From: Chloroflexota bacterium
GTDB taxonomy: Bacteria > Chloroflexota > UBA11872 > VXOZ01
Assembly (NCBI GenBank): GCA_022824225.1
Contig: JAJEAH010000070.1
Coordinates: 1 to 34,472, forward strand
Reading direction: 5' to 3'
DNA: 34,472 bases
The notes under the pieces were generated by a model, which ran no database searches, was not told the origin of the DNA, and saw only the letters and a program-made list of their open reading frames with translations. This document shows, in pieces, positions 7,559-21,998 of the stretch. How positions within the stretch are numbered: position 1 is the first letter of the stretch; each line of letters starts with the position of its first letter. Position numbers and translations under genes: made by a program.

Positions 7559-8773
7559 TCAATGAAGCAGCGCCCGCACCCGATCTTCCAGATAGGCCAG
7601 CGCCCGGGGCAGCATCACGTGGCCTCGGATCGCCGCCTGCAGCGTTTCCGCGCACAGCTCCTCCACTGCCGGATAGGCGGCAAACTTGGGAAACGTGAGC
7701 ATGTGACTCTGGACCGCCTCCTCCAGCGCCGCCAGACGCTGGGCGTGCACTGTGCCCGGCGGCGTCTCCTCCCGCACCCGCGCCATCACCGATATGCGCG
7801 GCGCGATGGCGCCGGTCTGCGCCTCGGCGTACTGGCTGTCCGCGGACGTCAGGAAGCGCACCAACGCCAGAGCGCCCGCCATGTCCCGCACGGAGGTGGG
7901 GATGGCAAAGGAGTGGCCCCCGGCGTAGACGGCGCGCGTGCCCGCCGGGCCCACCGGATAGCGCGCCACGCCAAACCGCTCGGCCACGGCGCTGGTCTGC
8001 GGGTCGGTGAGCAGGCCGTAGTAGGCGGGCCAGTCGGCCGCCAGCGCGCAGTTGCCCGCGCGAAAAAGCTGTGAGACCTCGTCGAAGTACGTCGCGCTCA
8101 GATCGCGGGGCGTGAGGCCCTGTTGGTAGAGATCGGCCAGGTAGCCCAGCGCCCAGCGGCCGGCGCGGGTGTCGAACGACGGAGTGAGGTCTGCATCGAA
8201 CAGCGTTCCACCCGCCATGGCCGCCAACTCGTAGAACGTGCCGAACAGCCCTGACGAGTGGCCGGGAAAAGCAAAGCCAAAGAGGTCGGGCGGGCGCGTG
8301 AAGAAGGTAGCTATGTCCCGCACCTCGTCCCACGTGTCCGGCACGGCCAACGGTCGCCCGTACTGGCGCTGGAACCGCGCCTGCTCGCCCGGATCGGAGA
8401 AGAGATCGCTGCGGTAGAAGAGGATGCGGGCGTCCACGTTGCGGGGCACCTGCACGAGCGCGCCGTCCACGCGGGCGAGTCTGCGCAAGGCGGGTGAGAA
8501 GTCCGCCAGTTCCGCCCCGGTAATATGGTCGTCGAGCGGGAGCAGCCAGGCGCGCTGCGCGGGGGCATATTTGACGTGCGTGGAGATTACGTCGTACGCG
8601 GCAGCGCCGGCGGTGAACGCCTCGTCAATATGAGCATTCAGCGCCGGATGCGGCAGTCGCGCGGCCACGTTGACCGTATAGCCCGTTGCCCGTTCGAATT
8701 GCGGCAGCCGGTCGTAGAGCGTATCGTACTGCGGCCCGCCGATGAAGGCGGCGTTGAGCTGGCGCTGCGCCAT
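7559..8773 (-). CDS. ABC-type solute-binding protein (family 1), lacking a signal peptide
   Basis: The 404-residue protein resembles sugar-binding proteins of ABC importers: an N-terminal lobe with AAYDVISTHVKYAP and ILFYRSDLF, TWDEVRDIATFFTR in the middle, and a C-terminal AGGHSFAIPTSVRDMAGALA followed by RFLTSADSQ. Family members normally start with a signal peptide or lipobox. This one starts MAQRQLNAAFIGGPQYDTLY with none, and an in-frame TAA lies only seven codons upstream of the ATG (8797-8795), so no signal fits. No permease or ATPase gene adjoins it. GGAG lies 12 bases before the ATG. It could be a cytoplasmic binding protein, or its export may use another route. Confidence 0.8.
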   Translation of the reverse strand: MAQRQLNAAFIGGPQYDTLYDRLPQFERATGYTVNVAARLPHPALNAHIDEAFTAGAAAYDVISTHVKYAPAQRAWLLPLDDHITGAELADFSPALRRLARVDGALVQVPRNVDARILFYRSDLFSDPGEQARFQRQYGRPLAVPDTWDEVRDIATFFTRPPDLFGFAFPGHSSGLFGTFYELAAMAGGTLFDADLTPSFDTRAGRWALGYLADLYQQGLTPRDLSATYFDEVSQLFRAGNCALAADWPAYYGLLTDPQTSAVAERFGVARYPVGPAGTRAVYAGGHSFAIPTSVRDMAGALALVRFLTSADSQYAEAQTGAIAPRISVMARVREETPPGTVHAQRLAALEEAVQSHMLTFPKFAAYPAVEELCAETLQAAIRGHVMLPRALAYLEDRVRALLH

Positions 8774-9215: not shown

Positions 9216-10040
9216 CTAGCTCAGTCCGTACAGCGGCTGGCCTGCCACGCCGATATCCAGGCGATACACCGCGCCGGTCTGGGTTTCCGTCACGTAGAGC
9301 GAATCTTCCCAGAAATCCACGTTGGTCGGGTTCTTTCCCGGCACGGCGAGCTCTTCGATCACCTGGCCGGACGGATCGATGACGGCCACAACGCCTTTGC
9401 CGTAGTGCGCCACGTAGAGGTTGCCGTCCGCGCCAAAATCCATGCCGTCGGGTCCCACGCCGCCTTCCATCTGGGCATAGAGGCTGCGTTTGTCGGCGCT
9501 GCCATCGGGGTTCAGGGTGAACGCATGGATACGCCGCGTATACGTTTCGGCAACGTAGAGGGTTTCCTCATCCGCGGAGAGGCAAACGCCGTTGGGAAAA
9601 GCCAGGCCCACGGCAAAGACCGAAATCGCGCCGTCCGCCCCCACCCGGAAGACGCGCCCCACCGGCTTCTCCAGGTTGGACCCTTTGGGATCGGTGAAGT
9701 AGCAGTTGCCGTGCCTGTCCAGAATCAGGTCGTTGGGACCGCGAAAGCGCTTGTTGTTGAACGATTCCGCCACCACGGTATGCGTGCCGTCGGGCGCAAA
9801 GTCGAGAATCTGCGCCAGGCCGTTTTCCGCCACGATCAGGTTGCCGTTGCGGTGCATGCGCGAGCCGCAGGGCACGCCGCCGGTTTCGGCAAAGATCTCC
9901 ACGTGGCCGTCCAGCGTCACCTTGCTGATGCGGCCGGCGTCGCACTCCATGACGTAGAAGTTGCCCGCGCGGTCGAAAGAAGGGCCTTCGGGAAAACCGA
10001 AGCCGTCTGCAACGAGTACCGGACGCGCGTCGGTATTCAT
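9216..10040 (-). CDS. SMP-30/gluconolactonase-family protein
   Basis: The 274-residue beta-propeller protein carries the four metal-site positions of the SMP-30 family: Glu18 (GFPEGPSF), Asn103 (RGPNDLILD), Asn150 (AFPNGVCLS) and Asp198 (GVGPDGMDF). Family enzymes hydrolyse sugar lactones or related esters with a divalent metal. No signal peptide is seen, so a cytoplasmic location is likely. The ATG at 10040 is chosen for AAGGA ten bases upstream; the open frame further up overlaps the SDR gene. The SDR gene lies 70 bp upstream on the same strand; a dehydrogenase making a lactone followed by a lactonase is a plausible pairing. The second family member is at 19826-20704. Confidence 0.87.
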   Translation of the reverse strand: MNTDARPVLVADGFGFPEGPSFDRAGNFYVMECDAGRISKVTLDGHVEIFAETGGVPCGSRMHRNGNLIVAENGLAQILDFAPDGTHTVVAESFNNKRFRGPNDLILDRHGNCYFTDPKGSNLEKPVGRVFRVGADGAISVFAVGLAFPNGVCLSADEETLYVAETYTRRIHAFTLNPDGSADKRSLYAQMEGGVGPDGMDFGADGNLYVAHYGKGVVAVIDPSGQVIEELAVPGKNPTNVDFWEDSLYVTETQTGAVYRLDIGVAGQPLYGLS

Positions 10041-10110
10041 GCGAAAGCATCCTTTCTCCGCGCTGGGGTCGCGCGCCGCGCGCCGCGCTGTGCCGGGTGA
10101 ACGTCTTGCA

Positions 10111-10986
10111 CTACTGCTCGGATTCGTCGTCTTCAATGAGCGCGGCCGGGCCGAGCGGCCGCGAGAGATCATACCCAAGCAGGTCGGGATGCCGCTGCAG
10201 GAACTCCTGCACGCGCGTGCCCCCCAGCCCCTTGAAGCCGAGCAGGAAGCCGCCGTCTATGACCAGGGTGTGCCCTGTCACGAAGCGCGCTTGCGGGGAG
10301 CACAGATAGAGGGCGCCCTGGGCAATGTCCTCGGCTCGACCAATGGTGGGCAGGATATTCCAAAGAATGTTGCGTTCGTGCCAGATTGGGTCGTGGGCGT
10401 TTTCTTCTCGCATCTCATCCGAGGGAATGGCGCCGGGGGCGATAGCGTTGACGCGGATGCCGTCATTGCCGAAATCAAGGGCCATCTGGCGGGTGAGTTG
10501 CATGAGCGCGGCCTTGGCCGTTTCGTACGTGGGATAGCCGGGACTGACTTGAAAGCCGTGCACCGAGCTCAGGTTCAATATCGCGCCTCCGCCGGCCGCG
10601 CGCATGTGGGGCACGGCGTACTTGCCGGCCAGGAACGGCGCCTTGAGCAACACGTCGAAGCTCGCGTCCCAATCCTCCTCGCTCAGTTCCTCGATCGACC
10701 CTCTCCGCTCCCAGTGGGCATTGTTCACGAGAATGGTCACACCGCCGTAGCGAGCGGCCGCCGTTGCCACCATGTCGCGATTGCCGGCAAGCGTGCCCAC
10801 GTCGGCGTGGAAGTAGGAAGCCTCACCCCCGTTGGCGCGGATTTCCGCCGCCACGGCCTCGCCGGCCTCGTCCTGTATATCGGCAATGAGCACCCGCGCG
10901 CCCTCTGCGGCAAAGCAGCGGGCAATGGCACGCCCGATGTTGTTGGCGGCGCCGGTGACTATAGCTACCTGATCTCGCAATTGCAT
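10111..10986 (-). CDS. Short-chain dehydrogenase/reductase (SDR)
   Basis: The 291-residue classical SDR has the cofactor loop TGAANNIG (11-18), NNA (88-90), a catalytic Ser at 140/141 (LNLSSVHG), and Tyr154 with Lys158 in YETAK. VNAIAPGAI (179-187) and the C-terminal TGHTLVIDGGFL are also typical. Asp36, at the end of the second strand in LIADIQ, suggests NAD preference. It would oxidise or reduce a hydroxyl group on an unknown substrate. The C-terminus runs about 35 residues past the usual SDR end and is acidic at its tip (EDDESEQ). The ATG at 10986 follows a weak purine-rich site. The gene heads a minus-strand unit with the SMP-30 gene. Confidence 0.9.
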   Translation of the reverse strand: MQLRDQVAIVTGAANNIGRAIARCFAAEGARVLIADIQDEAGEAVAAEIRANGGEASYFHADVGTLAGNRDMVATAAARYGGVTILVNNAHWERRGSIEELSEEDWDASFDVLLKAPFLAGKYAVPHMRAAGGGAILNLSSVHGFQVSPGYPTYETAKAALMQLTRQMALDFGNDGIRVNAIAPGAIPSDEMREENAHDPIWHERNILWNILPTIGRAEDIAQGALYLCSPQARFVTGHTLVIDGGFLLGFKGLGGTRVQEFLQRHPDLLGYDLSRPLGPAALIEDDESEQ

Positions 10987-11315
10987 GTTCTCTTGAAGAC
11001 CTCTAGCGCCGCATGGTGTTCGCGGCAAGATGGCGCACCCCCGCAACTGGGGACTGCGCACTTTCGGTTCCTTCTGCCAAGGCACGTGGCTTGCGGCGGC
11101 GCCGCGCGCCGCCCCGACCCAAAGCTGCCCCTATTGTGACCAAACGGACTCCGGTTTGTCCACTAGCACGGTGTTACGGCGGTGAGAGCCACCCGCGTTG
11201 ACATCTCCGCTCCGCGCCTCCCATGGCGTTGTGCCCTGCCGCGGAACGTCCGGTAACTTGCCGACCGCACGGCAGGACGACTATTCTGCATCCAACGTAT
11301 CGCACAGGAGAGTCC
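10987..11315. other. Divergent intergenic region between SDR and EamA genes
   Basis: These 329 bp must contain the starts of both divergent transcripts. A GC-rich self-complementary stretch (GGCGGCG ... CGCCGCC, about 11095-11113) and a small inverted repeat CAAAC/GTTTG (about 11140-11158) are present. No confident -35/-10 pair and no gene is seen. Confidence 0.3.
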
Positions 11316-12185
11316 ATGCCGTTCTTCCGGGTCGCCCTGGCGTTGTGCGCCTCTGTGGCAATCATCAGCAGCGCTTCCATCCTGATCAAGCTCGCGCAGG
11401 CGCCGGTGCTCGTCATCGCCGCCTACCGGCTGGGCCTTGCCGCGCTGGTCCTGGCGCCGCTGGCCGTTACACTGCGCCGGCAACACCTCCGCGCCCTCAG
11501 CGGGCGCGATTGGCTGATTGCCGCCGTGGCCGGCAGTTTCTTGGGCTTGCACTTCATCACGTGGATCGCCTCGCTGGAATATACCTCCGTCGCCAGTTCC
11601 GTGGTGCTCGTCACCATCAATCCCATCTTCGTGGGTCTCGGCATGGTCGTCATCTTCCGCGAACGGCTGCATCCGCTGCTGGTGTGGGGCATCGCGCTCT
11701 CGGTAACCGGCGGCATCCTGATCGGCTACAGCGACTTTCAAGTGGAAGGTCAAGCGCTGCTGGGCGACGCGTTGGCGTTGCTGGGTGCGGTGATGCACTC
11801 CGCCTACTTGCTGCTGGGGCAACGCCTGCGGCGGCGGCTCGACCTGCTGCCCTACATCACCGTGGTCTACGGCATGGCGGCGCTGCTGGTACTGGCTACT
11901 GCCGTAGTCACGCAACAGTCGTTCACCGGCTATGCGCCAGCCACGTACCTGGTAATGGTCCTGCTGGCGCTGGGACCCCAACTCCTCGGCCACACCGCCT
12001 ACAATTGGACACTGCGCTACGTCTCGGCAGCCGTGGTCGCCGTGGCTATCCTGGGCGAACCGGTGGGGGCGAGCATTCTGGCGTACTTCATTCTGGACGA
12101 GCGCCTGACGCTGCTGCAGATGGCGGGCGGGGTGCTGGTGCTGTTAGGGATCTATCTTGCGCTGCGCACGCAAACGCGCGGATAG
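11316..12185 (+). CDS. EamA/DMT-family transporter
   Basis: The 289-residue protein has about ten hydrophobic segments arranged as two EamA repeats. In the first repeat, AAYRLGLAALVLAPLAV is followed by SLEYTSVASSVVLVTINPIF; in the second, GEPVGASILAYFILDERLT is followed by AGGVLVLLGIYLAL. This is the drug/metabolite transporter superfamily, inner-membrane proteins that mostly export amino acids, nucleotides or other small metabolites. The substrate cannot be inferred. The ATG at 11316 has AGGAG six bases upstream. The last codons and the stop lie in a small 26-bp tandem repeat that continues downstream. Confidence 0.9.
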   Translation: MPFFRVALALCASVAIISSASILIKLAQAPVLVIAAYRLGLAALVLAPLAVTLRRQHLRALSGRDWLIAAVAGSFLGLHFITWIASLEYTSVASSVVLVTINPIFVGLGMVVIFRERLHPLLVWGIALSVTGGILIGYSDFQVEGQALLGDALALLGAVMHSAYLLLGQRLRRRLDLLPYITVVYGMAALLVLATAVVTQQSFTGYAPATYLVMVLLALGPQLLGHTAYNWTLRYVSAAVVAVAILGEPVGASILAYFILDERLTLLQMAGGVLVLLGIYLALRTQTRG

Positions 12186-12577: not shown

Positions 12578-12916
12578 TTAGCCGCCGAGTAGCCGCATCC
12601 CGCCAATGAGGACAGCGGCCCACACTGCCATGCCGCCAACCATCCACTTGATCAGGCGAACCTCCATCGCGCGGAGTTCAGACGTCAGTTCGCCCTTCAG
12701 GTCGGCCATTTCGGCTCTGAATTCGCCCCTCAGGTCAGCCATGTCGGCCTTTAGTTCGCCCCTCAGGTCGGCCACGTCGGCCTTTAGTTCGCCCCTCAGA
12801 GCGGTCAGGTCAGCTTTCAGTTCGCCTCTCTGGGTGGCCAGGTCATCCTTGGTTGCCAAGTGGTCATAGACCCCTTCAAGGCGGCTAAGGCGCTCCTCTG
12901 TCGTCAGCGCAGCCAA
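12578..12916 (-). CDS. Small hendecad-repeat coiled-coil protein with C-terminal membrane anchor
   Basis: The 112-residue protein starts LAALTTEERLSRLEGVYDHL, then has about five 11-residue repeats (RGELKADLTAL, RGELKADVADL, RGELKADMADL, RGEFRAEMADL, KGELTSELRAM), and ends in one hydrophobic helix (WMVGGMAVWAAVLIGGM). An 11-residue period gives a right-handed or straight coiled coil, so it should form a homo-oligomeric rod anchored to the membrane. Similar small 'TTEERL ... KADL' proteins of unknown function occur in environmental bacteria. The TTG at 12916 is preferred because GAGGAG lies eight bases upstream. A TTG at 12964 would lie within the predicted -10 box. The repeat is also visible in the DNA as 33-bp units. 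Confidence 0.75.
   Translation of the reverse strand: MAALTTEERLSRLEGVYDHLATKDDLATQRGELKADLTALRGELKADVADLRGELKADMADLRGEFRAEMADLKGELTSELRAMEVRLIKWMVGGMAVWAAVLIGGMRLLGG
12689..12820. repeat. 33-bp tandem repeat inside the coiled-coil gene
   Basis: Four in-register units (12689-12721, 12722-12754, 12755-12787, 12788-12820) share TTCGCCC(C/T)TCAG at the start and a (C/T)TTTAG- or CTGAA-like end; a fifth, diverged unit follows. Each unit encodes one 11-residue repeat. Units two and three are nearly identical, consistent with recent expansion. Confidence 0.8.
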
Positions 12917-12951
12917 AATAGTGTCTCCTCGAGCCGAGACGTTCGCCTGCT

Positions 12952-12970
12952 CAAAGTATACCAAACTTTG
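12952..12970 (-). promoter_or_regulatory. Extended -10 promoter of the coiled-coil gene with an overlapping inverted repeat
   Basis: On the minus strand TGGTATACT (12965-12957) is an extended -10 box. Transcription would begin near 12950 and leave a leader of about 34 nt before the TTG at 12916. A perfect inverted repeat, CAAAGT (12952-12957) and ACTTTG (12965-12970), brackets the -10 box and could be an operator. A plus-strand TATACT at 12988-12993 may serve the divergent hydrolase gene but has no clear -35. Confidence 0.45.
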
Positions 12971-13099: not shown

Positions 13100-14503
13100 G
13101 TGAACTGCATCGTCATCTGCCTCGACACTTTTCGCGCCGACTGCATCCGGCATCTTGGCGCGCAGCACATGCAGACCCCCACCCTGGACGCCATGGCGCG
13201 GGACGGCGTCTGGTTCGAGAACGCCTTTGCCGAGGCGCTGCCCACCGTGCCGGCCCGGCGGTCGCTCTTCACCGGCATTCGCGGTTTTCCCTGGCGGTGG
13301 GTGCGGGATACCACCGGCTCCTCGCCCGGCGCGCCCGCCATGCCTGGCTGGCACGGGGTGCCGCCCCACCAGCAGACACTCGCCGAGCGGCTTTCCCGCG
13401 CGGGCTACGCCACGGCGCTGATCGCGGACACCTACCACCTCTTCAAGCCCACCATGAACTTCACCCGCGGCTTCATGAACTGGGAGTTCTACCGCGGGCA
13501 GGAAGCCGACCCCTACCGCCTGGGCACGGAAGCGGAGCTTCAGGCCGAGCGGTACAGCCACGATCCGGCGAACCTGCCGTTCGGGCTGCGCCAATGGCTC
13601 TGGAACGTCAAGGACCGCCACACGGAAGAGGACTTCACCTTTGCCAAGTGCATGCGCCGCTCCATACAATTCATCGAGGAAAGCCGCGATCACCATCCTT
13701 TCTTTTTATGGGTAGACTCGTTCGAGGCCCACGAGCCCTGGCACCCGCCGTTTGAGTATGCCGACGCCTACATGGACGCGCCGTGGGAGGGCATCGAACC
13801 CATTCACCCGCGCGGCGAGCCCTTGAGCGCGGCGGAGCAGGAGCGGGTCAAGGCGCTCTACTACGGTTCGTTTACATTCATCGATAAGTGGATTGGCGTC
13901 CTCGTCAATCATCTGGCCGATACGGGGCTGCTGGACGAGACCATCATCGTGCTCACCTCCGACCACGGCACCCAAATGAACGAGCACGGCGAGTTCGGCA
14001 AGAGCCAGCGCCACATGAACGCTTACAACACCCGCGTGAACATGCTCGTGCGCCATCCTGAGGGGCCCCGCGATACGGTGGTCACACCGTTCGTGCAGCA
14101 CATCGACGTCGCGCCCACAGTTCTCAATTGGCTTGGGGTCCCCCACGACCGTCTGGACGGCGCGGACATGTGGCCGCTTGCCACCGGCGGCAAGGAAGAA
14201 CTGCGCGATTGGTCGCTTACGGTCTGGGCCTATGAGGCGAGCGTGCGCGACCACACCTGGAACGCGGTGGTGAATATCCAAGATTCCGATCCGCAGTGGA
14301 AGCTCTACCGCATTGATGAAGACCGGGACAGCTTCGACGACGTGGCAGCGCAGCACCCGGACGTGGTGGCAACGCAACGGGCCAGGCTGGAAGGCTTCCT
14401 GGGCGAACCGCTGCCGGCGCGGCTGCTGGGACAGCATCCCGCGAGCAATTACCCCATGGTGGACTTCCTCAACGCCCGGGCGCGCGCGCAGGACGGCGGC
14501 TAG
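13100..14503 (+). CDS. Sulfatase-fold hydrolase, paralogue 1, with Thr at the nucleophile position
   Basis: The 467-residue alkaline-phosphatase-superfamily protein has the sulfatase layout: metal-site Asp9 in CLDTFRAD, the active-site segment TVPARRSLFTG (49-59), SFEAHEPW (208-214), TSDHG with Asp288-His289 (286-290), and VQHIDVAPTVL (332-342). Sulfatases need Cys or Ser at the first position of C/S-x-P-x-R so that it can become formylglycine. Here that position is Thr49, which cannot be converted by the known route. Thr nucleophiles occur in related phosphodiesterases and phosphoethanolamine transferases, so phosphoester hydrolysis is possible. No signal peptide is seen. The GTG start matches the GTG of paralogue 2, and GGAAGGA lies upstream. 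Confidence 0.85.
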   Translation: MNCIVICLDTFRADCIRHLGAQHMQTPTLDAMARDGVWFENAFAEALPTVPARRSLFTGIRGFPWRWVRDTTGSSPGAPAMPGWHGVPPHQQTLAERLSRAGYATALIADTYHLFKPTMNFTRGFMNWEFYRGQEADPYRLGTEAELQAERYSHDPANLPFGLRQWLWNVKDRHTEEDFTFAKCMRRSIQFIEESRDHHPFFLWVDSFEAHEPWHPPFEYADAYMDAPWEGIEPIHPRGEPLSAAEQERVKALYYGSFTFIDKWIGVLVNHLADTGLLDETIIVLTSDHGTQMNEHGEFGKSQRHMNAYNTRVNMLVRHPEGPRDTVVTPFVQHIDVAPTVLNWLGVPHDRLDGADMWPLATGGKEELRDWSLTVWAYEASVRDHTWNAVVNIQDSDPQWKLYRIDEDRDSFDDVAAQHPDVVATQRARLEGFLGEPLPARLLGQHPASNYPMVDFLNARARAQDGG

Positions 14504-14581
14504 TCTGCTATCGCGGACCGGCACTCGAGCGTCCGGAAGCGCCGGATTGGGAACGTGCGGCGGTGATGAAGGAGCGGCGAC

Positions 14582-15976
14582 GTGAACTGCATCGTGATCT
14601 GCCTGGATACGTTCCGCGCCGACTGCATCCGCTATCTCGGCGCGCAGCACATGCAGACGCCCAATCTCGACGCGCTGGCGCGAGACGGGGTCTGGTTCGA
14701 CAACGCCTATGCTGAGGCCCTGCCGACGGTGCCGGTACGCCGGTCGCTCTTTACGGGCATGCGCGGCTTTCCCTGGCGGTGGGTGCGCGATACGATGGGC
14801 TCCTCGCCCAACGCCGTGAACATTCCCGGTTGGCACGGCGTCCCGCCCCACCAGCCAACCTTGGCCGAGCGCCTCTCCCGCGCGGGTTACGTCACCGGTT
14901 TCGTGGCCGATACGCCCCATCTCTTCAAGCCGACCATGAACTTCACCCGCGGCTTCATGAACTGGGAGTTCTTCCGCGGCCAGGAGGCCGATCCGCATCG
15001 CCTCGGCACGCCGGCCGAACTTCACGCGGACCGCTACAGCCACCACCCGGACGACCTGCCGTTCTGGTTTCGCCAGTGGCTCTGGAACATCAAGGACCGC
15101 CGCACGGAGGAAGACTACACGTTTCCCAGGTGCATCCGCCGCGCCATCCAATTCATGGAGGAAAGCCGGGAACTGCATCCCTTCTTCCTGTGGATCGATT
15201 CATTCGAGGCCCACGAGCCGTGGCAGCCGCCGTCCGCGTATGCCGACGCCTATATGGACGCGCCCTGGCAGGGCGTCGAGCCCGTAGCGCCGCGCAACGA
15301 GACCTGGACGCCGGCGGAAGAAGAACGTGTGCGGGCGCTCTACTACGGCTCCCTGACGTTCATGGATAAGTGGATTGGCGTGTTGCTGGACCACCTGGCC
15401 GAGAGCGGCTTGCTCGACGAGACCGTCGTCGTCTTTACGTCGGATCACGGCACGCAACTCAACGAGCACGGCGAGTTCGGCAAGACGTCTAAGCACATGA
15501 ACGCCTACACCACTCGCGTGAACATGCTGGTGCGCCACCCGGACGGACCCCGCGACACCGTGGTCACGCCGTTCGTGCAGCACATCGACGTTGCCCCAAC
15601 CATCCTGCGGTGGCTGGGTGTGCCCCACGACCGCATGGACGGAGAGGACATGTGGCCGCTCGCCACCGGCCAACGGGACTCCCTGCGCGACTGGGTGCTC
15701 GCGGTCTGGGCGTATGAAGCGAGCGTGCGCGACCACACCTGGAACGCGGTGGTGAACGTCCAGGAACCCGATCCGCAGTGGAAGCTCTACCGTATCGACC
15801 AAGACCGGGACAACTTCGACGACGTAGCCCCCCGATACCCGGATGTGGTGGCAACGCAACGGACCAGGCTGGAAGGTTTCCTAGGCGAACCGCTGCCCGC
15901 CCGCCTGCCGAGCGTTCGCCCGGGCAGCAACTATCCCATGCAGGACTTTCTGAGAGCGCGCCTGCAAAGGGAATGA
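14582..15976 (+). CDS. Sulfatase-fold hydrolase, paralogue 2, with Thr at the nucleophile position
   Basis: This 464-residue protein is about 80 percent identical to the preceding gene; by hand count roughly 174 of the first 213 aligned residues match. It keeps the metal-site segments CLDTFRAD and TSDHG and the same substitution, TVPVRRSLFTG, with Thr49 where sulfatases have Cys or Ser. It lacks a signal peptide. The start is a GTG following GGAGCGGCGAC. The gene lies 78 bp after paralogue 1 on the same strand, so the two form a tandem duplicate and probably one transcript. Differences cluster at likely substrate-facing positions (for example DTYHLF versus DTPHLF), which could reflect different specificity. 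Conservation of Thr in both copies argues against a sequencing error or simple decay. Confidence 0.85.
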   Translation: MNCIVICLDTFRADCIRYLGAQHMQTPNLDALARDGVWFDNAYAEALPTVPVRRSLFTGMRGFPWRWVRDTMGSSPNAVNIPGWHGVPPHQPTLAERLSRAGYVTGFVADTPHLFKPTMNFTRGFMNWEFFRGQEADPHRLGTPAELHADRYSHHPDDLPFWFRQWLWNIKDRRTEEDYTFPRCIRRAIQFMEESRELHPFFLWIDSFEAHEPWQPPSAYADAYMDAPWQGVEPVAPRNETWTPAEEERVRALYYGSLTFMDKWIGVLLDHLAESGLLDETVVVFTSDHGTQLNEHGEFGKTSKHMNAYTTRVNMLVRHPDGPRDTVVTPFVQHIDVAPTILRWLGVPHDRMDGEDMWPLATGQRDSLRDWVLAVWAYEASVRDHTWNAVVNVQEPDPQWKLYRIDQDRDNFDDVAPRYPDVVATQRTRLEGFLGEPLPARLPSVRPGSNYPMQDFLRARLQRE

Positions 15977-17431: not shown

Positions 17432-17803
17432 ATGACAGGGAACGGCAGAGATGAAGCGGTCGAAATGCACTTGCGAACTAGCCGGCAATTCATGCTCCAA
17501 GCGCAGGAAGAGTTCGACGCTGGTGACAGACTCCAGGCCTCAGAAAAGGCGTGGGGCGCGGCTGCACACGCAGTAAAAGCTATTGCCGAACAGAGAGGAT
17601 TGGAGCACAAAACTCACGCCCGGCTCTTCATTGCAGTCGATCATATTGCTGAAGATACCGAGTGTCCTGAATTACGCACGCTCTTTAGCCACGCGAGTTC
17701 CTTGCACCAGAATTTCTACGAGAACTGGCAAACGGAAAAGTTTGTGCAAGACGGCATCAACCAAGTAAGACAACTGGTTGAAAAGCTACAAGCGTTTGCA
17801 TGA
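17432..17803 (+). CDS. Small PaREP1/HEPN-like helical protein
   Basis: The 123-residue, helix-rich protein matches the PaREP1-type pattern: an N-terminal helix with AQEEFDAGDRLQASEKAWGA, then AHAVKAIAEQRGLEHKTH and a C-terminal helix with FYENWQTEKFVQDGINQV. PaREP1 is related to HEPN domains, which bind nucleotides or RNA, and some are toxins. An Arg followed six residues later by His (RGLEHKTH) resembles the HEPN RNase motif but sits mid-protein, so catalysis is not claimed. No nucleotidyltransferase antitoxin gene adjoins it. AGGAGG five bases before the ATG and a compact promoter suggest a well-expressed single gene. Family assignment is from memory of the pattern. Confidence 0.7.
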   Translation: MTGNGRDEAVEMHLRTSRQFMLQAQEEFDAGDRLQASEKAWGAAAHAVKAIAEQRGLEHKTHARLFIAVDHIAEDTECPELRTLFSHASSLHQNFYENWQTEKFVQDGINQVRQLVEKLQAFA

Positions 17804-18030: not shown

Positions 18031-18468
18031 CTATGACAACAGCCGCCGTGTACGCCAGGCGCGGTAGGCGAAGAGCAGCGGTAAACCCAAAACGAAGAGC
18101 CGCCCGATGAGGCCCCATAGGATTTGGCGGCGATAGACGTACTCGATCTCGTCCCGCACCGTGGTCAGACCGTCTCCGCTCTCGGTGAAGGTATGGCGGT
18201 GGGCCCAATGCGCGAACGGGCCGCTGATTTGCCTGTCGGCAAAGCCAGCGTCGCTTACCGACTCGATGGCGGCGCGCCAGCGGATGGGAATGGGGCCGAG
18301 CCAGAGCGTGAAACGCATCTCGTCACCGGAAGACAGCACCTCGGGCGCCGACTGGATGCGCACGATGATAGGCGGCGGCGTGATCTCGACGAGGCTCTGC
18401 CGCCTGCGGTGAAATGCAGCCACCGTTTCGCGCGGCGCGGCGACCGTAAACTCGTGCCGGAAGGCCAT
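18031..18468 (-). CDS. SRPBCC (START-like) family protein
   Basis: The 145-residue protein begins MAFRHEFTVAAPRETVAAFH, the usual first strand and helix of SRPBCC ligand-binding proteins. It continues with RFTLWLGPIPIRWRAAIESV and FTESGDGLTTVRDEIEYVY, alternating strands of the same fold. The C-terminal helix is unusually hydrophobic (GRLFVLGLPLLFAY) and may lie on or in the membrane. SRPBCC proteins bind hydrophobic ligands or catalyse cyclisation; no substrate is evident. Its ATG overlaps the stop of the class V aminotransferase gene by one base (TGATG), so the two are translationally coupled. Confidence 0.8.
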   Translation of the reverse strand: MAFRHEFTVAAPRETVAAFHRRRQSLVEITPPPIIVRIQSAPEVLSSGDEMRFTLWLGPIPIRWRAAIESVSDAGFADRQISGPFAHWAHRHTFTESGDGLTTVRDEIEYVYRRQILWGLIGRLFVLGLPLLFAYRAWRTRRLLS

Positions 18469-19595
18469 CAGCCGTCCGGCGCAAAGGGGCGCAGCGCGTC
18501 AAGGTAAGAAGAAACGTCCGCGCTGTTGTTATAGAGGTGGAGGGACGCGCGCACGCGGCCGTCGCCGCCCCACGTGTGCACGTTCTTGGCGATGAGGGCG
18601 TCGCGCACGGCGACGGCATCTTCTACAGCGATTGCAATGTTGCCTGCCCGGCGCGCTCGTTCCACTGGCGTCATCACGGTCCAGCCCTGGCCCTGCAAGC
18701 CCGCGATGAGTTCATCCCCCAACGCCTCCACGTGGGCGCCGATGCGGTCTGCGCCAAACTGCTGCACGTAGCGGACGCCATTCTCCAGGGCGTAGATGGC
18801 CGCATACGCCGGCATGCCCAACTCGAAACGCTCGGCCGTGGGTTTCCAGTTGATTCTCTCAAAGCGATCGTCGCTGAGAAAGTTCTCCACGGCAAACCAC
18901 CCCACGGCCCCGGGGGCAAAGTCCGGCAGCCGCGCGCGGTTCCAGTAGAGCACGCCGCCGCCGTGGATGCCGAGCAGCCACTTATACGTGCTCGCCACCG
19001 CAAAGTCGTAGTCGCTTACGTCCACCGGCACGACGCCCAGCGATTGGGTCACGTCCGCCAGCAGCAGCGCGCCGTGGGCGTGGGCGGCAGCCGCAATTGG
19101 GGCCAGATCGAGCCGCAGACCGGACAAATAGCTTACGTGGCTCACCGCCACCAGGCGCGTGCGGTCGTTGATCTGCGCAATAACCTCTTCGGGCGTAAAC
19201 TGCCAGTCCCGGCTGCGCGCCAAACGCACCTCGACGCCGTGTTCCTGCATCTGTATCCACGGCAGCACCGTGCTGGGAAACTCCAGGTCGTTGGTGACGA
19301 TGTTGTCACCGGGCCGGAAGTCGATGCCGCTGGCGATGAGCACGATGGCTTCCGAGGCGCTGCCCACCAGGCCGATGTCGTCCGCCGCGCAATCCATGAG
19401 CGCCGCCAGCCGCTGCTTGCAGCGTGCCTCAGTGGCAATATGCTCCGCTCGCCCGGCCTCGGCGCGGGAGCGTTCGTGCAGGTAGCGCGTCAGCGCCTGG
19501 GTTTGAGACTTCAGCGGAGCCGACTCCGCACCGGTATAGAGATAGGCGGAGTCCGCCACACCGATGAAGTCCTGCCGGGGTGCGAGGGATTGCAT
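18468..19595 (-). CDS. Class V aminotransferase-fold PLP enzyme
   Basis: The 375-residue PLP enzyme is of the cysteine desulfurase / isopenicillin-N epimerase type. Lys205 in ASTYKWLLG should bind PLP, Asp181 with Gln184 (LLADVTQSLG) contact the ring, and His153 (AVSHVSYLSG) stacks over it. GSASEAI (78-84) forms the phosphate-binding loop. No catalytic Cys loop typical of cysteine desulfurases is seen in the C-terminal part, which favours an epimerase, lyase or aminotransferase role. The ATG at 19595 follows a weak AAAGG. The downstream SRPBCC gene overlaps by one base, implying a joint function. Confidence 0.87.
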   Translation of the reverse strand: MQSLAPRQDFIGVADSAYLYTGAESAPLKSQTQALTRYLHERSRAEAGRAEHIATEARCKQRLAALMDCAADDIGLVGSASEAIVLIASGIDFRPGDNIVTNDLEFPSTVLPWIQMQEHGVEVRLARSRDWQFTPEEVIAQINDRTRLVAVSHVSYLSGLRLDLAPIAAAAHAHGALLLADVTQSLGVVPVDVSDYDFAVASTYKWLLGIHGGGVLYWNRARLPDFAPGAVGWFAVENFLSDDRFERINWKPTAERFELGMPAYAAIYALENGVRYVQQFGADRIGAHVEALGDELIAGLQGQGWTVMTPVERARRAGNIAIAVEDAVAVRDALIAKNVHTWGGDGRVRASLHLYNNSADVSSYLDALRPFAPDG

Positions 19596-19710
19596 GTCCT
19601 GATGCCTTTCTTAAGTCCAGGTGAACACGTTGTGCTTGCTCTCTTTGAGATCCCGCGCAAGCGGGAATGACGGAACCTGCCGTGCTGTTCTCTTGGCAAT
19701 GAGAGCCGTG

Positions 19711-19741
19711 GACGCAGGTTGCAGACCTGCGCTACCGGAGC
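19711..19741. repeat. Palindromic dispersed repeat, family B, copy 2
   Basis: GACGCAGGTTGCAGACCTGC followed by GCTACCGGAGC matches 8974-9006 with one change in the core. It lies between the SMP-30 gene and the aminotransferase gene. Confidence 0.75.
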
Positions 19742-19825
19742 GAAAGCGCCCAAGCCAGCTATTCCCATGGCTATACCGAACGGTTGGTAGCTGGCACGGG
19801 CGTGACGGGGCGTTAGGAGAGACTA

Positions 19826-20704
19826 TTAGCCGCCGAAGCGGAACGACGGTACGCCTTGGTACGGCATCTGGATTGCGAAAAGGCCCCCTGCCAGGGGTTG
19901 CCGCGCCAGGTCGGCGGCGTCGAGTTGCTGGGCGGCGGACGTGATGTAGAGCGTGTCCAGATTGGCACCGCCGAACGCGCACGCCGTTACCTGGGTAACC
20001 GGCAGGTCAATCTTCTCCATGAGCGCGCCGGAATGAGGGTTCCAACGGCACACGCGCGAGCCGCCGTAATGGGCGACCCAGAGCATGCCGTCGGCGTCGA
20101 TGGCCATGCCGTCGGGCATGCCGGCGTCGTCCGGCACGGCCACGGCAACCCGCTCGTTGGCGATGTCGCCGGTGTCGTTGTCGTAGTCATAGGCCCGCAC
20201 GTTCTGGCGCAAGGTATCGATGTAGTACATAGTCGTGTGATCGAGGCTCCAGACGATACCGTTGGAGATGCCGACGCCGTCGAAGATCGTGTGGACGCTG
20301 AGATCGGTGTCCAGGCGATAGAGGCCGCCGGAGTCCTTTGGGTCCTCGTACGCCATGGTGCCGGCCCAGAAGCGGCCGCCCGGATCGCACTTGCCGTCGT
20401 TGAAGCGGTTGCCGGTAACGTGCGCCTCGGGATTGGCGATGAGCGATAAATCCTGAGATTCCGGGTCGAACGACGCAAAGCCCTGTTGCACCGCCAGCAT
20501 CAAGCCCCCGGCCTCGCGCAGCACCACCGTGCCCACGTGCTGGCCCACGTCCAAGCCGCGGTTCTCGCCGGTGGCCGGATCGTACACGTAGACCTTGGAG
20601 TTGAGAATATCCACCCAGTACAGCACCTGTTCGCGTTCGTCCCACAGCGGCCCTTCGCCCACCAAGGCATGGGCATCCACCAAGAGTTCGACAGCATTTG
20701 CCAC
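19826..20704 (-). CDS. SMP-30/gluconolactonase-family protein (regucalcin-like)
   Basis: The 292-residue beta-propeller has the classical SMP-30 metal site: Glu18 (VGEGPLWDE), Asn102-Asp103 (NRFNDGKCDPGG), Asn148 (GISNGIVWS) and Asp198 (GMPDGMAID). It is closer to regucalcin-type lactonases than the protein at 9216-10040, because it keeps RFNDGKCDP and RFWAGTM. The likely role is sugar-lactone hydrolysis in the cytoplasm. The GTG at 20704 is chosen because GAGAGGT lies six bases upstream; the longer frame (to 20908) crosses GC-rich noncoding DNA. It is divergent from the Gfo/Idh/MocA gene, a frequent partner type in sugar catabolism. Confidence 0.9.
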   Translation of the reverse strand: MANAVELLVDAHALVGEGPLWDEREQVLYWVDILNSKVYVYDPATGENRGLDVGQHVGTVVLREAGGLMLAVQQGFASFDPESQDLSLIANPEAHVTGNRFNDGKCDPGGRFWAGTMAYEDPKDSGGLYRLDTDLSVHTIFDGVGISNGIVWSLDHTTMYYIDTLRQNVRAYDYDNDTGDIANERVAVAVPDDAGMPDGMAIDADGMLWVAHYGGSRVCRWNPHSGALMEKIDLPVTQVTACAFGGANLDTLYITSAAQQLDAADLARQPLAGGLFAIQMPYQGVPSFRFGG

Positions 20705-21017
20705 GGTTCTACCTCTCCCCACCTGCCTGCGCAGGATTCCGCGTGCGTATTCACTCTGTGCCAATGCACAACCACCTCTGATGATAGACTCTACCTTGCC
20801 GGTCTGGCGAACGGAGACCCGGTGTAAGTCTTTATCCACGGGGCCGGGGCCGGATAGATGACGCCGCCCCCTCGGCAGCCGCCGCCGGACCGCCGCGCCG
20901 CGCGCCATTTGGCCGCCGCGCCGTCGTTGGCGCGCGGCGCTTGTGTTTCCGCCCTGCTGCTTCTATCATGGGGCGGAAGCAGCCACAAACGCCGGGACAC
21001 CGAACACGGAGGGACCC
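20705..21017. other. Divergent intergenic region between lactonase and oxidoreductase genes
   Basis: These 313 bp carry the upstream regions of both divergent genes. A short inverted repeat TGTGC-CAAT-GCACA (about 20758-20771) is the only operator-like site seen. No confident promoter pair and no gene is seen. Confidence 0.3.
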
Positions 21018-21998
21018 ATGCCAGGCCCGAGCACCGTTCGCATTTGCATGATTGGCGCGGGCAGCCTTGCCAACGCTATGCACTATCCGTCGTTGAGCGA
21101 AATGGAAGACGTGGAAATCGCCGCCGCGTGCGACCTGAACACCGAGAGGCTCCAGCAAACGGCGGCAAAGTTCAATATCGCCGCCACCTATTCCGACTAC
21201 CGCGAAATGTTGGACGCGGAGAAACCGGACGGCGTCTACTGCCTGATGCCGCCGCACCACCTCTTCGACATCTCGATAAATGTTCTACAGCGGGGCCATA
21301 ATCTCTTCGTGGAAAAGCCGCCGGGACTCAATGCCTACCAGACCAGCAGCCTGGCCAAGACGGCCGCCAAGTATGGCGCGCTCACCATGACAGCCTTCAA
21401 CCGCCGCTTCATCCCGCTCATGCGCGAGGTGCGCGCCCAGGTGGAAGCGCGGGGGCCTATCATCCAATTTCAGTCCGTCTTCCTGAAGCACCAGTTCACC
21501 ACGCCGGGCGACCTGCCCTACTACGCCGGCGCAACCGACATCTTGAGCTGCGATGCCGTGCATGCCGTTGACGTCTGCCGCTGGCTGGGCGGTAGCGACG
21601 TGGCGGCGGTGGCCAGCGACGTGCGCGAGGAGTATTCCGACTATCCGAACGTATTCAACGCCCTCATGCGCTTCGAAAATGGGTGCGCCGGTTTCCTGCA
21701 GGCCAATTGGGTGGCCGGCACCCGGCGGCACATTTTCGAGATACACGGCAAGGGCATCACGGCCTACATCGACCCCGACGAAACGGCCAAGGTCTATACC
21801 GACGGCAAGGCGGAACCCACGGTGCTGGACGTCAACGAGGTCGCCGGCAACGATGCGCGCTACCACGCCTACGGCTTCTTTGGCGAAAACCGGCACTTCA
21901 TCGACTGCATCAAGACCGGCCGCCAACCCGACACGAACTTTGCCGACGCCACCAAGACCATGGAACTCGTGGACGCTATCTACCACTCGGTGCTGTAG
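21018..21998 (+). CDS. Gfo/Idh/MocA-family oxidoreductase
   Basis: The 326-residue protein has an N-terminal Rossmann fold with GAGSLA (13-18), CDLNTERL at the second strand, and the family motif FVEKPPGL with Glu99-Lys100-Pro101. The C-terminal domain contains SCDAVHAVDVCRWLGG, matching the usual HxxD active-site segment. Family members oxidise or reduce sugars, inositols or their derivatives with NAD(P). The substrate is unknown. GGAGGGA lies three bases before the ATG at 21018. It is divergent from the SMP-30 lactonase gene, which suggests, but does not prove, shared substrate metabolism. Confidence 0.9.
   Translation: MPGPSTVRICMIGAGSLANAMHYPSLSEMEDVEIAAACDLNTERLQQTAAKFNIAATYSDYREMLDAEKPDGVYCLMPPHHLFDISINVLQRGHNLFVEKPPGLNAYQTSSLAKTAAKYGALTMTAFNRRFIPLMREVRAQVEARGPIIQFQSVFLKHQFTTPGDLPYYAGATDILSCDAVHAVDVCRWLGGSDVAAVASDVREEYSDYPNVFNALMRFENGCAGFLQANWVAGTRRHIFEIHGKGITAYIDPDETAKVYTDGKAEPTVLDVNEVAGNDARYHAYGFFGENRHFIDCIKTGRQPDTNFADATKTMELVDAIYHSVL

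Follow-up and report, generated by a model that had tools for sequence, protein, structure and literature searches.

Tandem putative hydrolases of family PF00884 with threonine at the nucleophile position and aspartate in place of a conserved sulfatase lysine in a Chloroflexota bacterium

The window analyzed here, a stretch of 34,472 nucleotides (contig JAJEAH010000070.1, assembly GCA_022824225.1, Chloroflexota bacterium), contains two adjacent genes for hydrolases of the sulfatase family PF00884, both of which carry threonine where sulfatases have the cysteine that is converted to formylglycine. The two open reading frames were assigned by profile match, and both begin with GTG:

13100..14503, forward strand: copy 1, threonine-type PF00884 hydrolase, 467 amino acids
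14569..14574, forward strand: AAGGAG, ribosome-binding-like site upstream of copy 2 (from the sequence)
14582..15976, forward strand: copy 2, threonine-type PF00884 hydrolase, 464 amino acids

Purine-rich, ribosome-binding-like stretches precede the start codons of both copies. The two proteins match PF00884 with E-values of 2e-37 and 2.6e-41 and scores of 129.6 and 142.4 bits (curated cut-off 25), over positions 2–301 of the 301 in the profile, and are therefore members of the family. The open upstream part of the copy 1 frame overlaps in antisense a gene for a short coiled-coil protein in which LRGELKAD units recur (12578-12964, reverse strand).

The two proteins are 78.9% identical, in agreement with the first-pass annotation of this DNA, which had them differ at about one residue in five. 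The pair has a dN of 0.13 and a dS of 0.80 (dN/dS ~0.16), indicating purifying selection on both copies. Each congener has one such gene in the same neighborhood, 88–91% identical to copy 1 and orthologous to it; a second close copy was looked for in the congeners and none was found. Copy 2 branches just outside the group formed by copy 1 and the congeners (support 96 in a quick tree, 99/96 in a careful one), and is thus either an older duplicate lost elsewhere or the faster-evolving member of the pair.

The residues that define the putative active site are located as follows, all on the forward strand:

13124-13126 (copy 1) and 14606..14608 (copy 2): Asp9, predicted metal ligand (MAFFT)
13244..13246: Thr49 of copy 1 (ACC), nucleophile position, formylglycine/Cys column (alignments)
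14726..14728: Thr49 of copy 2 (ACG), nucleophile position, formylglycine/Cys column (alignments)
13256-13258 (copy 1) and 14738..14740 (copy 2): Arg53 of T-x-P-x-R (MAFFT)
13427..13429: Asp110 of copy 1, in place of sulfatase Lys-A, which is Lys113 of P. aeruginosa AtsA (alignments)
14909..14911: Asp110 of copy 2, in place of sulfatase Lys-A (alignments; end of predicted strand 104-110)
13730-13735 (copy 1) and 15212..15217 (copy 2): His211-Glu212, His-B and a clade-specific Glu (column comparison)
13961-13966 (copy 1) and 15443..15448 (copy 2): Asp288-His289, predicted metal ligands (MAFFT)
14000-14002 (copy 1) and 15482..15484 (copy 2): Lys301, aligned with sulfatase Lys-B, which is Lys375 of AtsA (MAFFT)

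Around Thr49, both copies read ALP-T-VP(A/V)RRSLFTG. The first-pass annotation had placed the threonine of TVP(A/V)RRSLFTG at the formylglycine site, and the assignment holds in a MAFFT alignment with ~100 relatives, in HMMER (hmmsearch) comparisons with the phosphonate monoester hydrolases (PMHs) of the PDB, including 4upk (NP[C]GPSR), and when profiles are compared with those of Cys-type sulfatases by hhalign (E 2e-70). Thr is retained in all congeners (L023-L028, L037-L040) and in more distant relatives, and is therefore due neither to a sequencing error nor to chance. The (C/S)-x-(P/A)-x-R motif of S1 sulfatases is thus replaced by a Thr motif in both copies, in the congeners and throughout the clade to which they belong. 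Since this Thr is real and conserved, a formylglycine sulfatase is unlikely, as the first-pass annotation had proposed.

The metal site had been described as otherwise intact. This is correct for Asp9, Asp288, and His289, together with Arg53, His211, and Lys301, but not for two further positions. At the Asp-B position the pair has Thr10, where Cys-type relatives have Gln, Glu, or Asp, and in place of Lys-A in the sulfatase G-K-x-H motif both MAFFT and hhalign place Asp110, a clade-wide change that had been overlooked.

The structure of the protein was predicted with AlphaFold2 from 18 sequences (mean pLDDT 80, pTM 0.86); an earlier model from eight near relatives (pLDDT 56) was set aside, and Cys-type sulfatases from viral contigs were then added. 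The model has the S1-sulfatase/PMH fold, with a best Foldseek E-value against the PDB of 3e-27 at a TM-score of ~0.7, and matches the PMH 4uph with an E-value of 6.5e-27 and TM-scores of 0.71/0.66. Thr49 immediately precedes helix 50-58, and Asp110 ends strand 104-110, which from the alignments appears equivalent to the corresponding sulfatase strand. His211-Glu212 and Asp288-His289 follow strands 201-207 and 281-287, respectively. No signal or membrane segment is present, and the proteins begin, with MNCIVICLDT, at the first core strand.

The fold also bears on the proposal of a Thr-nucleophile phosphodiesterase or transferase made in the first-pass annotation. In a transferase of the LtaS or EptA style, a phospho-alcohol would be moved between alcohols. 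LtaS, EptA, and MCR-1 use Thr together with a metal ion that Glu, Asp, and His coordinate, and YejM shares this acid/Thr/Asp/His site (PMC5216409, PMC7576196); the alignments give the pair a similar predicted set in Asp9, Thr49, Asp288, and His289. However, these enzymes are anchored in the membrane, have an extracytoplasmic domain, and act outside the cytoplasm, LtaS, EptA, and MCR-1 on lipids, while the window pair, at 464-467 residues, has no anchor. Neither LtaS nor EptA is found among the best 50 Foldseek matches or the best 50-60 sequence and fold matches, which are to soluble S1/PMH hydrolases, and the neighboring genes suggest catabolism. Because the proteins start at strand 1, lack a membrane segment, and group with soluble hydrolases, the transferase half of the proposal is disfavored and we regard it as improbable. 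The hydrolase half is plausible, since structures have established Thr as nucleophile in two members of the superfamily: Thr89 in SPAP from Sphingomonas (PMC3145672) and Thr285 in MCR-1, seen there as phospho-Thr285 (PMC5216409).

The Thr-type proteins form a well-supported clade with members in Chloroflexota, Planctomycetota, and one alphaproteobacterial plasmid. We compared alignment columns in 88 representatives below 60% identity, 34 of them from this clade. Asp9, Thr49, Arg53, His211, Glu212, Asp288, His289, and Lys301 are present in all 34 and Asp110 in 33 (Ser in the other); Thr/Ser10, Trp84, Arg132 (33 of 34), Gly133, and Asp/Glu206 are likewise shared by these members. The set formed by Asp110, Thr/Ser10, Trp84, Arg132-Gly133, Glu212, and Asp/Glu206 is absent from the Cys/Lys type. 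Thr at the nucleophile position together with Lys-A occurs in none of 173 sequences; because few independent events underlie this, it should be read as a pattern and not as a statistical test.

The loss of both the canonical nucleophile and Lys-A, in a duplicated gene, could point to a relative without catalytic activity that serves in binding or regulation. Against this stand the invariance of the predicted metal ligands, Arg53, His211, and Lys301 in 34 divergent members, the strong purifying selection on the pair, and a nucleophile position that across the clade holds only Thr or Cys, always a hydroxyl or a thiol. We find such a role hard to credit.

The Cys-bearing members of the clade have the motif CMPARR(E/D) or similar on the same scaffold, with Asp110, Trp84, Arg132-Gly133, Glu212, and Thr/Ser10; they differ from the Thr pair in the Cys nucleophile, which lies in a motif like that recognized by the formylglycine-generating enzyme (FGE). 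They come from Rhizobium (L122), Deinococcus (L123), Marinovum of the Roseobacteraceae (L124), haloarchaea (L125/L126), Planctomycetota (L041/L042), and distant Chloroflexota. In the careful tree this subgroup is monophyletic (support 100/99), and the whole Asp clade is split from the Cys/Lys sulfatases (100/100). In the best tree, the Cys subgroup lies within the Thr members. Since the approximately unbiased test does not reject an alternative tree in which the Thr types form one group (p = 0.29), we do not claim a reversal from Thr to Cys. Either Asp110 came first and was followed by one change from Cys to Thr, or the nucleophile switched more than once. Asp at Lys113 was reported in 87 S1 sequences (PMC5066984), which probably correspond to this Cys subgroup. 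We searched for a characterized member or PDB entry of the subgroup and found none; solved structures gave no close match to clade members or their Cys counterparts, and no curated NCBIfam equivalog model scores above its cut-off for the clade.

The replacement of Lys-A bears on the possibility of a true sulfatase, in which Thr49 would attack sulfur and a sulfo-threonine intermediate would then be hydrolyzed. S1 sulfatases are, besides PMHs, the nearest families in sequence and fold, the genomes of relatives encode FGE and numerous sulfatases of the Cys type, and Lys301 and His211 are retained. We know of no proven Thr-type sulfatase, and an additional negative charge near the transferred group would disfavor sulfate. 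Lys-A, which belongs to the sulfatase active site and is 94% conserved among S1 sulfatases (PMC5066984), is replaced by Asp throughout the clade, and we consider this alternative unlikely. Compared with AtsA (1hdh), the pair shares the Pfam family, the fold, the Arg of C-x-P-x-R, His-B, Lys-B, and the metal Asp residues. It differs in having Thr for Cys, Asp for Lys-A, His for Asn-A, and Thr/Ser for Asp-B, and in the additional Glu212.

Lys-A is also lost in PMHs, which are phosphodiester and phosphonate enzymes of the same branch and have Tyr at this site (PMC5488252). RlPMH (2vqr), BcPMH (2w8s), SpPMH (4upk), and 4uph share the fold and are close in sequence profile, and like the pair they keep the Asp and Asp-His metal ligands, the Arg, His-B, and Lys-B. 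They carry Cys-derived formylglycine where the pair has Thr49, and Gln at the Asp-B site where it has Thr/Ser. The Tyr at Lys-A and Thr/Asp at His-A of the PMH class (S1_0) are replaced by Asp110 and by His113, which the alignments put in the region of His-A with one residue inserted. SPAP shares the Thr nucleophile and the metal Asp and Asp-His ligands, but is a bimetallic, NPP-like monoesterase whose Lys171 is close to the phosphoryl group (PMC3145672). The pair keeps Lys-B (Lys301) where bimetallic relatives have second-metal ligands, which in the NPP/alkaline phosphatase class are Asp/His/His, and where the DHHG-type relatives have Asp-His-His; Asp110, Glu212, and Asp206 may form a second site of another kind.

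Taken with moderate confidence, these observations favor the window pair being cytosolic, metal-dependent hydrolases of the S1-sulfatase/PMH branch of the alkaline phosphatase superfamily that use Thr49 as a direct nucleophile and act on phosphodiester- or phosphonate-type esters over sulfates. In such an enzyme, the catalytic metal would be held by Asp9, Asp288, His289, and Thr49, and the transferred group would be bound by Arg53, His211, and Lys301. The Thr49 alkoxide would attack the ester, giving a phospho- (or phosphono-) threonine intermediate that would be opened by water. In S1 sulfatases, hydrated formylglycine offers two hydroxyls, one for the attack and one to drive elimination, and His serves as the base (PMC5066984). 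Thr has no such second hydroxyl, so water (or an alcohol) has to open its intermediate. The clade-specific acids Asp110, Glu212, and Asp/Glu206 may supply the base or a second metal ion. Near the phosphoryl group, Lys and metal can take each other's place in this superfamily: Lys171 of SPAP has been suggested to fill the role that a magnesium site plays in E. coli alkaline phosphatase (PMC3145672). The reverse swap, from Lys to metal-binding acids, is therefore conceivable here. The substrate would most likely be a small molecule taken up by the cell, such as a phosphodiester, a phosphonate ester, or a related phosphate ester, sulfate esters being less likely.

Some points weigh against the assignment as a direct-Thr phosphoesterase. 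Alkaline-phosphatase-type serine enzymes can show weak sulfatase activity, so that a sulfate substrate is conceivable. For no member of the clade did we find a known activity. In addition, Asp110 and Glu212 are found in the Cys subgroup as well, so these acids cannot serve only as a repair for the lost formylglycine, and their proposed part as base or metal ligands is weakened.

A different possibility is that Thr itself is matured in a new way, e.g. oxidized to a ketone that hydrates like formylglycine. The T-x-P-x-R sequence still resembles the FGE recognition motif, and the genome encodes an FGE homologue. However, the motif Pro is missing in several clade members (TLQVR, TIEVR), and no dedicated maturase neighbor is seen in the annotated loci. 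As the first-pass annotation had stated, Thr is not known to be convertible: its conversion to formylglycine has never been demonstrated (PMC5066984), and oxidation would give a ketone. The novel activation also suggested there finds no support, the one FGE homologue being an ordinary one, and we judge it very improbable.

The genome (3.37 Mb in 87 contigs) has 21 PF00884 matches, and its single FGE homologue would serve the Cys-type paralogues, to which most of these proteins belong. Thr combined with Asp at Lys-A is found in five of the 21: the window pair, L018, L021, and L012. A sixth Thr occurs in L020 (C12:35652-36674; EIPS-T-TGARRCLHGGQ), whose background is that of the Cys/Lys type and which has Trp at Lys-A; this protein is either a Thr variant of independent origin or a copy in decay. 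A few genes from L012 lies a gene for a ComA (phosphosulfolactate synthase) family protein (L103:6316-7152, reverse strand), a possible sulfonate link. The close relatives are Chloroflexota metagenome-assembled genomes (VXOZ01, JAAXIC01, CATQHC01, JAPPLM01), whose isolate names suggest a marine or sponge setting.

The flanks of the pair are kept in the congeners and comprise sugar-acid-type catabolic genes:

9216..12185, upstream flank: SMP-30/gluconolactonase (9216-10178, reverse strand), short-chain dehydrogenase/reductase (10111-11085, reverse), EamA transporter (11223-12185, forward)
18031..21998, downstream flank: small protein (18031-18468, reverse strand), class-V aminotransferase (18468-19595, reverse), gluconolactonase (19826-20908, reverse), Gfo/Idh/MocA oxidoreductase (20943-21998, forward)

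A PaREP1/PaREP8 family protein (PF05942), of a family named from archaea, is encoded at 17432-17803 on the forward strand. No CUT1-type transporter is immediately adjacent to the pair; a solute-binding protein is encoded at 7559-8773. Related genes (L102, L108, L114, L115, L116, L120) often adjoin those for CUT1-type solute-binding proteins and permeases, and the Cys-subgroup genes of Rhizobium and Haladaptatus adjoin ABC transporter genes. Together with the lack of a signal or membrane segment, the transporters beside the relatives suggest hydrolysis of small imported molecules. A glycerophosphodiester substrate was considered and dropped: the UgpA/UgpE-like permease neighbors score far below the curated cut-offs and therefore indicate CUT1-type transport only, with no named substrate.

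A different Thr class (TxPxx with DHHG) is also found among the relatives (L128, L176). L128, on the Paenibacillus cellulositrophicus plasmid NZ_CP045296, is an operon that encodes three PF00884 proteins along with a CUT1 transporter, Gfo/Idh oxidoreductases, and an adenylyl-sulfate kinase; a second-metal motif resembling DHHG marks two of the three (TTPAYAS, TEVAHTG). A link of the clade to adenylyl-sulfate kinase was rejected, as two of these three Paenibacillus "sulfatases" belong to the DHHG-type class and the third is of Cys type. A genome of the same class as the host (G036; 2.3 Mb, 89% completeness) has 66 PF00884 matches and no match to FGE (PF03781), owing either to missing sequence or to another maturase. 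A test of whether genomes without FGE hold only Thr types was uninformative, since most of the sampled PF00884 genes of this genome are of Cys type. A scan of viral contigs found no Thr-type relatives; large viral-labeled IMG/VR contigs (L193-L199, most 137-228 kb, one 22 kb) carry Cys-type sulfatases, mostly with QCQPSRAS.

Thr in PF00884 is not a new idea, having been in print by 2016 for 30 of 59 Pfam seed sequences (PMC5066984). For a clade combining T-x-P-x-R with the change of Lys-A to Asp, or for its Cys counterpart, we found no description in the literature searched, in which subscription journals were partly covered. The Thr and Asp clade is widespread and probably cleaves phosphate-type esters rather than sulfates. 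The many "sulfatase" annotations in marine and sponge-associated bacteria serve as an argument for the breakdown of sulfated compounds. Of the PF00884 genes in the genome studied here, roughly one in four (5/21 and the lone Thr variant) is of the Thr type and probably does not encode a sulfatase.

More tentatively, the clade may represent a natural nucleophile-swap series, in which one Asp and Glu scaffold supports a Cys-formylglycine branch and plain-Thr branches and the acids form a second metal site. If so, it would be a new catalytic class within the "sulfatase" family, in bacteria and, for the Cys branch, archaea, and a second metal site unseen in S1 sulfatases or PMHs would let Thr replace formylglycine. 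With matched Cys and Thr enzymes on one scaffold, the gain that formylglycine brings over a plain alcohol becomes directly testable, as does the need for the accompanying change from Lys to an acid.

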